Shown: in pieces, positions 7,136 to 57,641 of the stretch
How the letters are laid out: every line of letters starts with the position of its first letter
Numbering within the stretch: the stretch's first letter is position 1
DNA from: Acidobacteriota bacterium
GTDB lineage: Bacteria; Acidobacteriota; Terriglobia; Bryobacterales; UBA6623
Assembly (NCBI GenBank): GCA_016125275.1
Contig: WGMB01000015.1
Span: forward strand, 124,001-188,000
Reading direction: 5' to 3'
DNA length: 64,000 bases
Made by a program: the position numbers and the translations under genes
The notes under the pieces: model-generated
What the model saw: only the letters and a program-made list of their open reading frames with translations
Told to the model about the DNA's origin: nothing
The model's database searches: none

Positions 7136-8629
7136 TCAGGGCGCGTAGGCGGGATTGGGGAGGGGCTTGCGGGCTTGGACGCGTTCCAAGTAGTCCAGCA
7201 GACGCTGGGTTAGCTCACGAGCCCTGCCGGGCTCGGCGGCGGCCAGGTCGCGCTGCTCGGCCGGATCGGCGGTCAGGTCGTAGAGCTCGGCCTGCTGCGT
7301 ATCAAAGAAGTACAGCGCCTTGTAGCGCCCTCGCCGCAGCGAAGCCTGCGGGCGGGTGCGGCTCTTCTCGCCGTCGTCGACGCCGATGGCGGGCAGAGCC
7401 TCCTCGTAGCCCTTTTCGGGGTGGTAGTAGGGGAAGTGCCACACCAGGTCGCGCTCCGGCGCCTCGTCGCGAGCCAGCACCGGCAGCAGGCTGCGGCCGT
7501 CGAGCCTTTCCAGGGGCTCGGCGGCGCCGGCCAGATCGGCGAAGGTCGCGAACAGGTCCGGGCCGTTCACGGGCGTGGCGCGGGTCTCTCCGGCGGCGAA
7601 GGCGCCCGGCTGACGCGCCAGCAACGGCGTCCGCACGCCGCCTTCGTAAAGGTTCCATTTGCCGCCCCGCAGCGGCGCGTTGACCGAGAAGTCCGGGTTG
7701 CCGCCGTTGTCGGAGGCGAACACGACGAGCGTGCTCTCGGCCAGCCCCTGCTCGTCGAGAGCGTCGAGCAGGCGGCCCACGTGGTGGTCGAGCGTCTCCA
7801 CGAAGCCGCCGTAGAGGATCTCGTTCTCCGAAGCCGCCGGCCCCAGCTTGCGGCGGTATTTCTCGACCAGCCAGCCGCCGCGCGCCCTCACCGGCGAATG
7901 CACGTAGAAGTGCGACACAAACAGGAAGAACGGACGTTCGTCGCGCGTGCGCAGAAACTCGATCGCGGCGTCGGTGAGCCCGTCGGGCGCGTACTCGCCC
8001 GAGGGCAGATCGTCGAAGCGGTCTTGGGCCCGCGAGGCAAACGCCCAGGGATGCGAGCCGAAGGTCTCCCGGGCCCACTCGAAGCCCTGCTGCAGCGGTC
8101 CGTGGGTGGGCGACCAGCCGTTGTAGACCCGGTAGTGACTGTTGAGGTGCCACTTGCCGACCATTCCGGTGCGATAGCCTGCGTCGCGCAACACCTCGGC
8201 GATCGTGCGCTCCTCCAGCGGCAGGTCGTAGGTGTAGGGAGGCGGCGTGAGCGGATGCAGCGGCCCGGTAGGAACCGCGTCGGTCCGCCACTTGGTCACG
8301 AACTCGAAGTGCAGCCGCGCGGGCGTCTTGCCGGTCATCAGCGCGGCCCGGGCGGGCGAGCACAGCGGAGCGCCGGCGTAGGCGTCAGTGAAGCGCAGGC
8401 CTTGGGCGGCCAAGCGGTCCAGCCGCGGCGTCTCGCACATCGTCGAGCCGTAGCAGCCCAGGTCCGACCAGGCCAGGTCGTCAGCCAGGATGAGCAGGAT
8501 GTTCGGGCCGGGAGCGGCGCAGAGGGGATACGCTGCGATCAGAAGGAAGAAGACGGACAGGAACGTCCGTCTCCACCGAGGGAGAGCGGGCTCAGTGGGC
8601 CGTCGGACGCCACTGCCGGCCGCGCCCAT
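7136..8629 (-). CDS. Secreted sulfatase (formylglycine type, CSPAR motif)
   Basis: The ATG at 8629 gives 497 residues and overlaps the stop codon of the upstream gene as TAATG, so translation is probably coupled; an earlier in-frame start would lie inside that gene. A hydrophobic signal region (about residues 22-38) ends near LCAAPGPN. Metal ligands appear in NILLILADDL (Asp50, Asp51). The active-site Cys90 lies in CSPAR, the consensus for oxidation to formylglycine, followed by AALMTG. VFASDNGG carries the C-terminal metal ligands. The enzyme would remove sulfate esters from a glycan in the periplasm or outside the cell. Coupling to the beta-helix protein suggests that both act on one polysaccharide. 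Confidence 0.93.
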   Translation of the reverse strand: MGAAGSGVRRPTEPALPRWRRTFLSVFFLLIAAYPLCAAPGPNILLILADDLAWSDLGCYGSTMCETPRLDRLAAQGLRFTDAYAGAPLCSPARAALMTGKTPARLHFEFVTKWRTDAVPTGPLHPLTPPPYTYDLPLEERTIAEVLRDAGYRTGMVGKWHLNSHYRVYNGWSPTHGPLQQGFEWARETFGSHPWAFASRAQDRFDDLPSGEYAPDGLTDAAIEFLRTRDERPFFLFVSHFYVHSPVRARGGWLVEKYRRKLGPAASENEILYGGFVETLDHHVGRLLDALDEQGLAESTLVVFASDNGGNPDFSVNAPLRGGKWNLYEGGVRTPLLARQPGAFAAGETRATPVNGPDLFATFADLAGAAEPLERLDGRSLLPVLARDEAPERDLVWHFPYYHPEKGYEEALPAIGVDDGEKSRTRPQASLRRGRYKALYFFDTQQAELYDLTADPAEQRDLAAAEPGRARELTQRLLDYLERVQARKPLPNPAYAP

Positions 8630-10572
8630 TAGCGGTAGAACGGCTGTCCCTTCAGCCAACGCGGCCCCCACACGGGCAAGGGCTTGCCGACCTCCAGCGC
8701 CCCCAGATCCGGCGCGGCGCCGTTGAAGTCCTCGTTGAAGCCGGGGATCACCACGCCGGCGTCGACGGCCTTGCCGCCGGGCTTCAACTGAAAGTTCAGC
8801 TCCATGGCGTGGTACATCTGGTGCCGCTTGGCGGGGTCGGGCGGGCGCAGGTCCTGAAAGATATCGAAGTCGACCTCCACGCCGTGCGCCTCCTGGCCGG
8901 TAGCGTCACGGAAGGCCTTGAGCGTGGGGTAGGTCTTCCAGTCCGAGCGCTGCGGCTCGTACATCGTCCGGCCCGGCGCGGGCGCCAGCCAACTGTACTG
9001 CGCCTCCACGCCCGGGTTGGGGCGGTAGCCGTTGTAGTCGCTGCTGAAGACGTCGGTGGCGTTGGCCCAGCGCATCACGCCGCGGCCTTCCGTGCCCCTC
9101 CCCAAGAACAGGTTGTTCCGCCAGTGCACGTTCGACGATGGGTCGCCGGCCACCTGCTCGCCCACCAGCGTGTTGTTCCAGACGAACAGCCCGGCGGGCT
9201 TGCCGGAGAACTTGAAGGCCACGCCGGAGGGCACGTGGTACAGGATGTTGCGCATGAAGTACGCCGGGCCGCCGAAGACCGGCTGCGAGCTGTAGCCGCC
9301 GTGCGCCGCGTTCACCCCTCTGTTGTTGAACACGCGGATGTTGTGGACGCCGCCGTCGGTCTCGATGTAGTCGTCGCCCGACATGTGAATGTCGTTGTTG
9401 TAGATGTCGATCGACGAGGCTCGGCGGTGGGGGTCCTTCTCCGGCGTGCCGTAGGTGGAGATGCCGATGGCGTCGTGGAAGTAGGCCATCGCGTTGTGCG
9501 CGATCACGTGGCCCGGCCCGTAGACCTTGACGGCGTAGTAGCTGCGCATCTCGTGCGAGCCGTAGGGGCCGACCGGCGACCACAGCGGACCGGTCCAGCC
9601 GATGAGCAGTTGATTCTCGTTGCGGCCCAGAAAGATGTTGTCGGCGATGTAGAAGTCGCTCGAGCCGGCGTACTCGGTCCACACGCCGAAGCCCACGTTC
9701 TCAAAGCGGCAGTTCTTCACCGTCAGCCCCACCGCGCCCAGCACTTCCTTGGAGCCGGCAAAGATGCCGACGTCGGTGTTGCGCAGCGTGAGCCCGTCGA
9801 AGATGTGGTACTGCGAGGCCATCACCTCGAAAATGCGATGGTTGCCGTCGCCGTCGAACACGGCCGCGCCGTCGCCGGCGGCCTTGATGGTGATCGGCTT
9901 CTCGGGCGTCCCCTTGAGCGTCAGCGACATCGTTCCGTCGAACGGCGTCATCATCGGGTCCACGTAGTTGAGCCGATCGTTCTTGTAGAGGCCGGCGTGC
10001 ACCAGGATCGTGTCGCCCGGCTGCGCCCTACGCTCCCACACCACGCTCCAGTCGCCGAGCCCCGCTCCGTAGTAGGCCTGCAACACGCTGGTAAAGCTCG
10101 GCTCGAGCTTCTCGCCCTCCCAGGCCGGCGGGTAGACGTGCAATGTGCGTCCGCCGGCGTAGGGCTGCGGCTCGCTGCGGGTCTTGACCTTGACGGTCTG
10201 CTTGGTTTGGCCCGAGGCGCCGTCCGGGTCGCTGAGCTCGAAGCGGCACTCGTACTCCGTGCCGGGCTCGACGTTGAGGATCGAACCGGCAAAGCCGTCA
10301 GGCACGGTGTAGTCCAGGTGCTCGCGGGCCCGGAAGACCCTCTCCCCGCCGATGCGGACCAGCGGCAGCGCTTTGCGCCACGCCGTCTCGCCCACCTTGC
10401 GGAACTCGACGCTCACCTGCGCGTTGCGGTTGGCGTCGCCGGAGATCTCCCACTCGAAGCCCAGGTTGAGCAGCGTGGGATGCTCGACCGTGAAGCGGCC
10501 GGCTTGGGTGGCGTTCTGGGCCAGGAGCGGAGCGGTCAGCAGGAGGACGGCGAAGAACAGGCGACGAGGCAT
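8629..10572 (-). CDS. Secreted right-handed parallel beta-helix protein, possible polysaccharide lyase or glycosidase
   Basis: The protein has 647 residues with a signal peptide (MPRRLFFAVLLLTAPLLAQ). An N-terminal beta-sandwich, fibronectin-like region (about residues 28-130, containing PGTEYECRFELSD) precedes a parallel beta-helix (about 170-540) marked by repeated short strands such as IFDGLTLRNTDVG and VKNCRFENVGFG. Such helices form polysaccharide lyases and polygalacturonase-like enzymes; no unambiguous catalytic set is visible, so the exact activity is open. The start follows TATAAT by 8 nt. The gene overlaps the downstream sulfatase gene, which suggests desulfation and backbone cleavage of the same substrate. 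Confidence 0.85.
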   Translation of the reverse strand: MPRRLFFAVLLLTAPLLAQNATQAGRFTVEHPTLLNLGFEWEISGDANRNAQVSVEFRKVGETAWRKALPLVRIGGERVFRAREHLDYTVPDGFAGSILNVEPGTEYECRFELSDPDGASGQTKQTVKVKTRSEPQPYAGGRTLHVYPPAWEGEKLEPSFTSVLQAYYGAGLGDWSVVWERRAQPGDTILVHAGLYKNDRLNYVDPMMTPFDGTMSLTLKGTPEKPITIKAAGDGAAVFDGDGNHRIFEVMASQYHIFDGLTLRNTDVGIFAGSKEVLGAVGLTVKNCRFENVGFGVWTEYAGSSDFYIADNIFLGRNENQLLIGWTGPLWSPVGPYGSHEMRSYYAVKVYGPGHVIAHNAMAYFHDAIGISTYGTPEKDPHRRASSIDIYNNDIHMSGDDYIETDGGVHNIRVFNNRGVNAAHGGYSSQPVFGGPAYFMRNILYHVPSGVAFKFSGKPAGLFVWNNTLVGEQVAGDPSSNVHWRNNLFLGRGTEGRGVMRWANATDVFSSDYNGYRPNPGVEAQYSWLAPAPGRTMYEPQRSDWKTYPTLKAFRDATGQEAHGVEVDFDIFQDLRPPDPAKRHQMYHAMELNFQLKPGGKAVDAGVVIPGFNEDFNGAAPDLGALEVGKPLPVWGPRWLKGQPFYR

Positions 10573-53373: not shown

Positions 53374-53379
53374 AGGAGG
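53374..53379 (+). promoter_or_regulatory. Shine-Dalgarno (AGGAGG) of the baeRF10-like gene
   Basis: AGGAGG lies 8 nt before the ATG at 53388 and decides against the in-frame GTG at 53379, which it overlaps. Confidence 0.7.
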
Positions 53380-53387
53380 TGGAGGCT

Positions 53388-54500
53388 ATGACGAAGAACG
53401 ATCTTCTTGGAGAGCTCGAAATCGCATGCACGCGCTGGAAGGGCCCGGTGTTGAGCGCCTATCTCAACGTAGACCCCAAGAATCAGATCAACTGGAACCG
53501 GGACTATGTCCCTCGCTGCAAGAACCTTGCCCGAATGGTGGAGAAGTCCTGCCCCGCTGAGGAGCGACAGGCCTTGCGGGCGGCCTACGACCGCCTGGAG
53601 CAGGAGTTGACTACCGGGGACGCGCCGCGCGGCAAGGCGCTCATCATCTTGTGCGACGCCGCCGGCGGCGAGCTCTGGCGCAGGGATGTGCGTAAACCCC
53701 TCCGCGAAACCTTGGAGTGGGGCTCGAAACCTTACCTGCTGCCTCTGCTGGAGGCTCTCGATGAGTACGAGCGCTTCGCCGTGGCGCTGGTCGACCGGAG
53801 TCGCGCACGGCTCTTCCTCATCGGCCTGGGCGAAATCGAAGAGGTCGCGGATTTCGTGTCGGATCGGGTGTCTCCACCCAAGTCCCCCGGCTCGGATCAC
53901 CCATGGTCGGAAGGAAACTTCCGCCGCCGCGCCGAGGAGCATGCCAGGCGGCATGCCATGGATGTCGTGGAAGCGCTGATCGATTCTGAGCGGCGCCTGG
54001 GTTGGGACCGGCTGATTCTGGCGGGACCGCTGGAGGGCCGCAAAGAGGTCGAGCGGCTCCTGCCGAAACGCTTGCAGAGCAAGGTCGTCGGGTCCGTCGC
54101 GCTTTGGGTGGAAGCCAAGCGGGACGACATCCTCGAGGTCGCCGAAGAGATCGAAGCCGCCATCGAACGCAAGGGCGAGCAGCAGATGGTCGAGAATCTC
54201 GTGCAAGACGCAGCCAAGAACCACGCTGCCGTCCTCGGGCTGGAGCCGACCTTGGCGACGTTGCGCGAAGGCCGCATCGACAAGCTGCTGGTCGCCGGCG
54301 ACTTCCGGCCCAAGTGGAGCGATCTGCCGGACATGGCGCTTTGGCTCGACGAGGGGCAGACTCGGCAAGAGGGCTCTCTGCTGGAGCGCATCCTCGAGCG
54401 GACCCTGGCGGACGGAGGGCGCGTCGAGTTCGTCTGGGGAGAAGCATCGGACCTGCTGCGCGAGCGGGGCGACGGCATCGGCGCCTTTCTACGCTACTAG
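53388..54500 (+). CDS. baeRF10-like (bacterial archaeo-eukaryotic release factor family) protein
   Basis: The start set by AGGAGG gives 370 residues. The order matches bacterial relatives of the archaeal/eukaryotic release factor eRF1. There is an N-terminal domain with VLSAYLNVDPKNQ and ALIILCDAAGGELWRRDV, and a middle RNase-H-like domain with RFAVALVDRSRARLFLIGLGEIEE and WDRLILAGPLEGRKEVERLL. A C-terminal L7Ae-like domain contains GRIDKLLVAGDF and ends GGRVEFVWGEAS...GIGAFLRY. Such proteins are proposed to act on stalled ribosomes or in stress translation. There is no GGQ-like tip motif. The gene lies 42 bp before dnaE2 on the same strand, so a damage or stress unit is possible. Confidence 0.82.
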   Translation: MTKNDLLGELEIACTRWKGPVLSAYLNVDPKNQINWNRDYVPRCKNLARMVEKSCPAEERQALRAAYDRLEQELTTGDAPRGKALIILCDAAGGELWRRDVRKPLRETLEWGSKPYLLPLLEALDEYERFAVALVDRSRARLFLIGLGEIEEVADFVSDRVSPPKSPGSDHPWSEGNFRRRAEEHARRHAMDVVEALIDSERRLGWDRLILAGPLEGRKEVERLLPKRLQSKVVGSVALWVEAKRDDILEVAEEIEAAIERKGEQQMVENLVQDAAKNHAAVLGLEPTLATLREGRIDKLLVAGDFRPKWSDLPDMALWLDEGQTRQEGSLLERILERTLADGGRVEFVWGEASDLLRERGDGIGAFLRY

Positions 54501-54505
54501 GACGC

Positions 54506-54534
54506 ATTCGCCAAGAGGCGAACAATAGGCGAAT
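54506..54534 (+). promoter_or_regulatory. Palindromic and direct-repeat element before dnaE2, candidate SOS operator
   Basis: TTCGCC-AAGA-GGCGAA (54507-54522) is a perfect palindrome with 4-nt centre. A further AGGCGAA (54527-54533) repeats the right arm (54516-54522) 11 bp on, one helical turn. GAAC (54520-54523), 7 nt and GAAT (54531-54534) also approach the GAAC-N7-GAAC direct repeat known for alphaproteobacterial LexA. It sits 9-36 nt before the GTG start. Confidence 0.45.
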
Positions 54535-54542
54535 ATAGAGGA

Positions 54543-57634
<3,092 letters not shown>

Positions 57635-57641
<7 letters not shown>

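Follow-up and report, generated by a model that had tools for sequence, protein, structure and literature searches.

The LexA box of Acidobacterium capsulatum, the subject of a 2006 paper by Mazon et al., is said to be GTTC-N7-GTTC. Our literature search found no acidobacterial LexA consensus beyond the title of that paper; subscription papers lay mostly outside the search, so absence from print is not implied. In the sources cited here, the alphaproteobacterial LexA box is given as GTTC-N7-GTTC (PMC9578287, PMC8565304, PMC3323433), the SOS box of Bacillus subtilis as CGAAC-N4-GTTCG (PMC9578287), and LexA of the Balneolaeota is described with a direct repeat and a regulon including recA, lexA, polymerases and a radical SAM protein (PMC7739468). 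One of these sources counts 17 LexA motifs as reported (PMC8565304).

Here we describe a direct repeat located in front of dnaE2 in the window, by which we mean the whole 64-kb stretch of DNA that was analysed. The features of the locus are as follows.

53379..54500, plus strand: upstream gene, baeRF family 10 (eRF1-like; PF18854, 110.7 bits)
54507..54512, plus strand: TTCGCC, left arm of a palindrome, seen in one of 36 aligned sites
54517..54533, plus strand: candidate LexA-type operator, direct repeat GGCGAA-CAATA-GGCGAA (GGCGAA-N5-GGCGAA) with an 11-bp period, also present at the genome's own lexA, recA and imuA and in relatives
54531..54536, plus strand: GAATAT, possible -10 element (by eye; weak), sharing bases with the second half-site
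54539..54543, plus strand: AGGAG, purine-rich, overlapping the GTG (direct reading)
54543..57641, plus strand: dnaE2 (imuC), error-prone DNA polymerase of 1032 aa (NF004225, Pfam domains)

The repeat sits, as had been predicted, between the two genes, inside a 42-bp gap that runs from the stop of the baeRF family 10 gene (54500), on the same strand, to the dnaE2 GTG (54543). The encoded DnaE2 scores 1225.7 bits against NF004225 (cut-off 939), and its GTG start is consistent with the ATG of relatives. The original prediction had also described a palindrome TTCGCC-N4-GGCGAA whose right arm recurs 11 bp downstream. The palindrome is there (TTCGCC-AAGA-GGCGAA, 54507-54522), having been placed one base too early at 54506, and its right arm GGCGAA does recur at the distance described, forming the direct repeat.

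This layout is shared with the alphaproteobacterial box, in that it is a direct repeat of 11-bp period, reading TTC-N8-TTC on the other strand, and is placed at lexA, recA and genes of the imuA-imuB-dnaE2 type; the conserved word, however, is TTCGC (GCGAA) rather than GTTC. The predicted GAAC-N7-GAAT is found at the window site, and its proposed near-match to a known LexA direct-repeat operator holds for the layout but not for the core, which is (G)GCGAA and not GAAC. None of the six own-genome sites used below fits GAAC-N7-GAAC, and at most two of 48 dnaE2/imuA sites could fit it, because a C follows the second GAA in two only. As a box for the whole genome GAAC-N7-GAAC was rejected, its 171 sites being barely above the 156 of the reversed control. 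The Acidobacterium capsulatum box, from the same phylum, is likewise a direct repeat, reportedly GTTC-N7-GTTC as against TTCGC-N6-TTCGC here. With the Bacillus subtilis box the site shares the half-site word (G)CGAA, often followed by a pyrimidine, but the repeats are direct here and inverted there; a test for the Bacillus-type CGAAC inverted repeat was negative, the window palindrome having its arms in the opposite order and occurring at one of 36 sites. The Balneolaeota box is a direct repeat like this one, with an unrelated half-site sequence. The box thus joins spacing of the GTTC-N7-GTTC type to a Bacillus-like half-site word, that is, an alphaproteobacterial-like layout to a word like that of CGAAC-N4-GTTCG. 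It is very likely a LexA operator, one more version of the direct-repeat type already known and slightly unlike the published forms known to us. In the lexA promoter of Sphingomonas, included as a yardstick, two overlapping GTTC-N7-GTTC words have their middle GTTC in common.

The rest of the same genome (7.55 Mb, 20 contigs) was searched for further boxes. We found GGCGAAGAAAGATCGAA upstream of lexA and GGCGAACAAAAAACGAA upstream of recA, each in reverse orientation to its gene, while AGCGAACAAAAGGCGAA abuts the ATG of imuA, with imuB next after it. The original prediction had named the recA and lexA promoters as the place where a missing motif or a distinct box would tell against it. A box of the same kind precedes both, and with the like box at imuA the reading as a candidate LexA operator is upheld.

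The pattern GCGAANAAWNNNCGAA matches exactly at seven own-genome sites, namely dnaE2, imuA, lexA, recA, rmuC, a radical SAM gene and a cytochrome c gene. Allowing one mismatch raises this to 41 sites, against 12 for a reversed control, and 23 of the 34 one-mismatch sites were examined, most of them lying within likely coding frames, as by chance. Allowing two mismatches, GGCGAANAAANGGCGAA gave 25 sites and its reversed control seven. Here dnaE2 and imuA-imuB lie on separate contigs (C9 and C13) with one box each. One other DnaE match was found in this genome at E <= 1e-100 (31% identity), presumably the replicative DnaE, and there is one RecA, plus a RecA-like protein that we read as ImuA. The names imuA and imuB rest on distant domain matches (43.8 bits for the ImuA model, short of the cut-off of 150; 40.6 bits for IMS) and on gene order. 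Two further boxed genes in this genome recur in the comparison with relatives.

C14:1459983 (L182): perfect box before a radical SAM gene
C12:345634 (L185, box from 2135, minus strand): one-mismatch box before a DUF72 gene (DUF72, 179 bits)

Against the Rv2578c family the radical SAM protein reaches 238.8 bits (cut-off 430), and against the PA0069 family 229.1 bits (cut-off 360); being under both cut-offs, it is a relative of these families and not a certified member. A literature search for Rv2578c together with LexA returned no paper. The genome's RmuC matches PF02646 at 257.4 bits.

From the six own sites at dnaE2, imuA, lexA, recA, rmuC and the radical SAM gene we built a 17-position matrix, under which their leave-one-out scores range from 17.7 to 23.8 bits. 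This matrix was applied to the 80 dnaE2 loci that a search of named genomes gave, with up to 74% identity. Most of them come from Bryobacterales and other Acidobacteriota, and the host of the window is itself an acidobacterium near Bryobacterales. Counting boxes that reach 17 bits inside 200 bp of imuA's estimated start or inside 150 bp of dnaE2, 39 of the 80 loci carry one at the imuA of an imuA-imuB-dnaE2 operon (weak and reversed in two, L066 and L079), and nine carry one directly before a dnaE2 that lacks an adjacent imuB, as in the window. The imuA start fell outside coverage in 12 operons; where it was covered, 16 of 55 operons had no box at this threshold, and in L063 the box is exactly 200 bp off. 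Four loci without an adjacent imuB have no box within 150 bp (L010, with a box 246 bp upstream; L027 and L052, both cut off upstream; and L082, where 4 kb held none). Of the twelve loci ranked closest in the dnaE2 listing (L009-L020), five reach 17 bits (L009, L010, L015, L017 and L020), and seven do not (L011-L014, L016, L018 and L019). Around the dnaE2 loci as a whole there were 53 matches in 252 kb upstream versus six in 508 kb downstream. The 48 dnaE2/imuA sites give the consensus AGGCGAAYAAAARGCGAAW, which is biased toward the matrix inside the box, since the sites were picked by it.

Other genes of relatives were scored in the same manner, against shuffles that kept base counts only, not dinucleotides, and with counts that are not independent of each other between relatives. 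Within 150 bp ahead of the estimated start, at least 14 bits was reached at 15 of 29 lexA-family loci (29 of 46 relatives' matches; shuffles 0/580), a set that includes the diverged paralogues L093 and L110, and at 14 of 29 recA loci (29 of 52 matches; shuffles 0/580). The radical SAM, DUF72, rmuC and gyrB genes were scored from -200 to +40 around their starts; starts are estimated, and loci ended by contig edges (e.g. L248, counted as a miss) may be misplaced. Here the same threshold was reached by 28 of 29 radical SAM loci (L247-L275; 29 of 32 matches; shuffles 4/580), 20 of them at 17 bits or more, and by all 20 DUF72 loci (L314-L333; 20 of 20 matches; shuffles 4/400), 18 of them at 17 bits or more; the DUF72 site was outside the matrix training set. 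With a box in one of six relatives (6 of 6 matches; shuffles 0/120; none at 17 bits), rmuC was rejected as a conserved target. The gyrB control gave one of 30 (30 of 40, own gene included; shuffles 2/600; none at 17 bits). According to a 2025 source, DUF72 and SRAP genes are somewhat enriched near polB2, as lexA is near bacterial polB2, and the DUF72 fold lies near that of UV-damage endonuclease (PMC11791011).

The genome encodes a canonical LexA, as its single protein above the family cut-off scores 175.6 bits against TIGR00498 (cut-off 110.95) and has LexA_DNA_bind and Peptidase_S24 domains. Among the plasmid-collection matches listed, it is nearest to a LexA of Aneurinibacillus (42.4%), with Sphingomonas third (41.3%). 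The recognition stretch reads ASIATVHKH, compared with ASSSTVHGH in Aneurinibacillus and KSKSGVHRL in Sphingomonas. ATVHKH is also present in L095 and L104, whose lexA promoters have no clear box, and L112 has ATVHRH.

Our preferred reading, to which we assign a probability of roughly 0.92, takes the direct repeat (54517-54533) for an operator through which LexA, in an acidobacterial SOS regulon, represses dnaE2 until damage occurs; LexA binding, repression, damage induction and a promoter at the window site are what we infer. A LexA dimer would occupy both half-sites of the repeat, which are 11 bp apart and so on the same face of the helix, and a two-fold dimer would thereby read a direct repeat. 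Bound LexA would keep dnaE2 from being transcribed. Once DNA is damaged, RecA filaments would trigger LexA self-cleavage and the operator would be vacated, so that dnaE2 would be expressed along with imuA-imuB, on another contig under its own copy of the box. The box in lexA's own promoter fits the autoregulation expected of such a system.

The alternative that survives best, although we regard it as improbable, is that the box, though genuine and tied to damage, is bound by a non-canonical regulator such as a LexA paralogue. A second LexA-like protein does exist in some relatives (L093 and L110, with 30% and 40% identity to the genome's own LexA), and the genome itself has a second weak LexA match, below the family cut-off. 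However, the box sits in the promoter of lexA itself, as autoregulation predicts, and ATVHKH is found in 13 of 16 aligned acidobacterial LexA-family proteins, whereas L093 and L110, which have diverged, lack both ATVHKH and a box (score about 0 bits). Against the LexA reading itself count the operons and close dnaE2 loci that have no box, the rmuC result, the lack of a consensus promoter at the window site, and the boxes of genus g5 of the same family: several of its lexA promoters (e.g. L094-L098, L107) score only 8.8 bits, its recA sites (L161, L163-L166, L169) are AGCGATAAAAT-like at 11.0-13.7 bits, and its radical SAM sites (L257, L259, L261, L263-L265) score 16.0-17.6 bits with the first half altered. 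The LexA recognition stretch is unchanged where aligned, and these eroded or shifted boxes possibly reflect drift or lost LexA autoregulation.

Still less probable is a reading in which a dimeric repressor uses the palindrome TTCGCC-N4-GGCGAA as its operator and the third half-site is a by-product. As a perfect 6-bp inverted repeat it is expected 0.02 times in the window, where it occurs once, and it was seen in two of 100 shuffles, yet its arms are reversed relative to the Bacillus box CGAAC-N4-GTTCG and its left arm is present in only one of the 36 aligned sites, the window's own (the alignment took in four of the six own, all nine dnaE2-adjacent and 23 of the 39 imuA sites). The palindrome therefore did not hold up as a recurring element, and it is the direct repeat that recurs instead. 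The TTCGCC arm is probably incidental, or a piece of a weak -35 region.

Chance similarity within a G+C-rich intergenic stretch is scarcely tenable: although GCGAA-N6-GCGAA, occurring once, is expected 0.40 times in the window and appeared at least once in 31 of 100 shuffles, which makes it unremarkable by itself in 64 kb, the site is the window's top score (23.8 bits, next 18.0) under a matrix built from the five other own-genome sites, first-order simulation of 100 sequences of 64 kb never gave so high a score (maximum 21.0 bits), and the box turns up again in front of further SOS genes and in relatives. What carries the evidence is the remainder of the genome together with the relatives, not the window repeat alone. 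The window's second-best site (10549-10565, 18.0 bits) lies inside a likely coding frame (8629-10572, minus strand), at its beginning, and is probably due to chance.

The biology suggested by the LexA operator reading is mostly ordinary SOS control; the phylum consensus and two extra conserved targets are what is noteworthy. On balance we favour the broader proposal that the Acidobacteriota LexA operator combines a Gram-positive-like half-site (GCGAAY) with an alphaproteobacterial-like direct-repeat layout, and controls lexA, recA and imuAB-dnaE2 plus the DUF72 TIM-barrel and Rv2578c/PA0069-like radical SAM proteins as near-constant SOS members. If so, these poorly characterised proteins would be damage-response enzymes, and the comparison with relatives points to both genes as conserved parts of the damage response. 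For a large phylum with few cultured members, the findings here supply a LexA consensus that can be tested and with which the SOS regulon could be read from genomes alone. They also show that a dnaE2 set apart from imuA-imuB still has its own copy of the probable operator. How LexA has moved between palindromic and direct-repeat operators is a question on which this combination of half-site and spacing bears.

Several smaller observations concern boxes and promoters. The exact box at C8:145208 (L122, L186) lies 77 bp ahead of a multihaem cytochrome c gene and is possibly a chance occurrence. On C6, near-consensus boxes at 186446 (minus strand) and 186955 (plus strand) are separated by about 0.5 kb (L184, 2447 and 2956); the one nearby protein tried had no Pfam or NCBIfam match. 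At the window site, scans found no consensus sigma-70 promoter and no terminator, and AGGAG is too near the GTG to be the usual ribosome-binding site of dnaE2. By eye, the box forms the spacer of TTGATA-N17-TAGAAT at the genome's own lexA, and the radical SAM gene has TTGACA-N17-GAATAT, with GAATAT placed relative to box and GTG as it is at dnaE2. A leaderless transcript (GAATAT-N6-GTG at dnaE2 and the radical SAM gene) is not claimed, as -35/-10-like words stand, by eye, ahead of the box in several relatives' imuA promoters, where the box would therefore span about +1 to +17.
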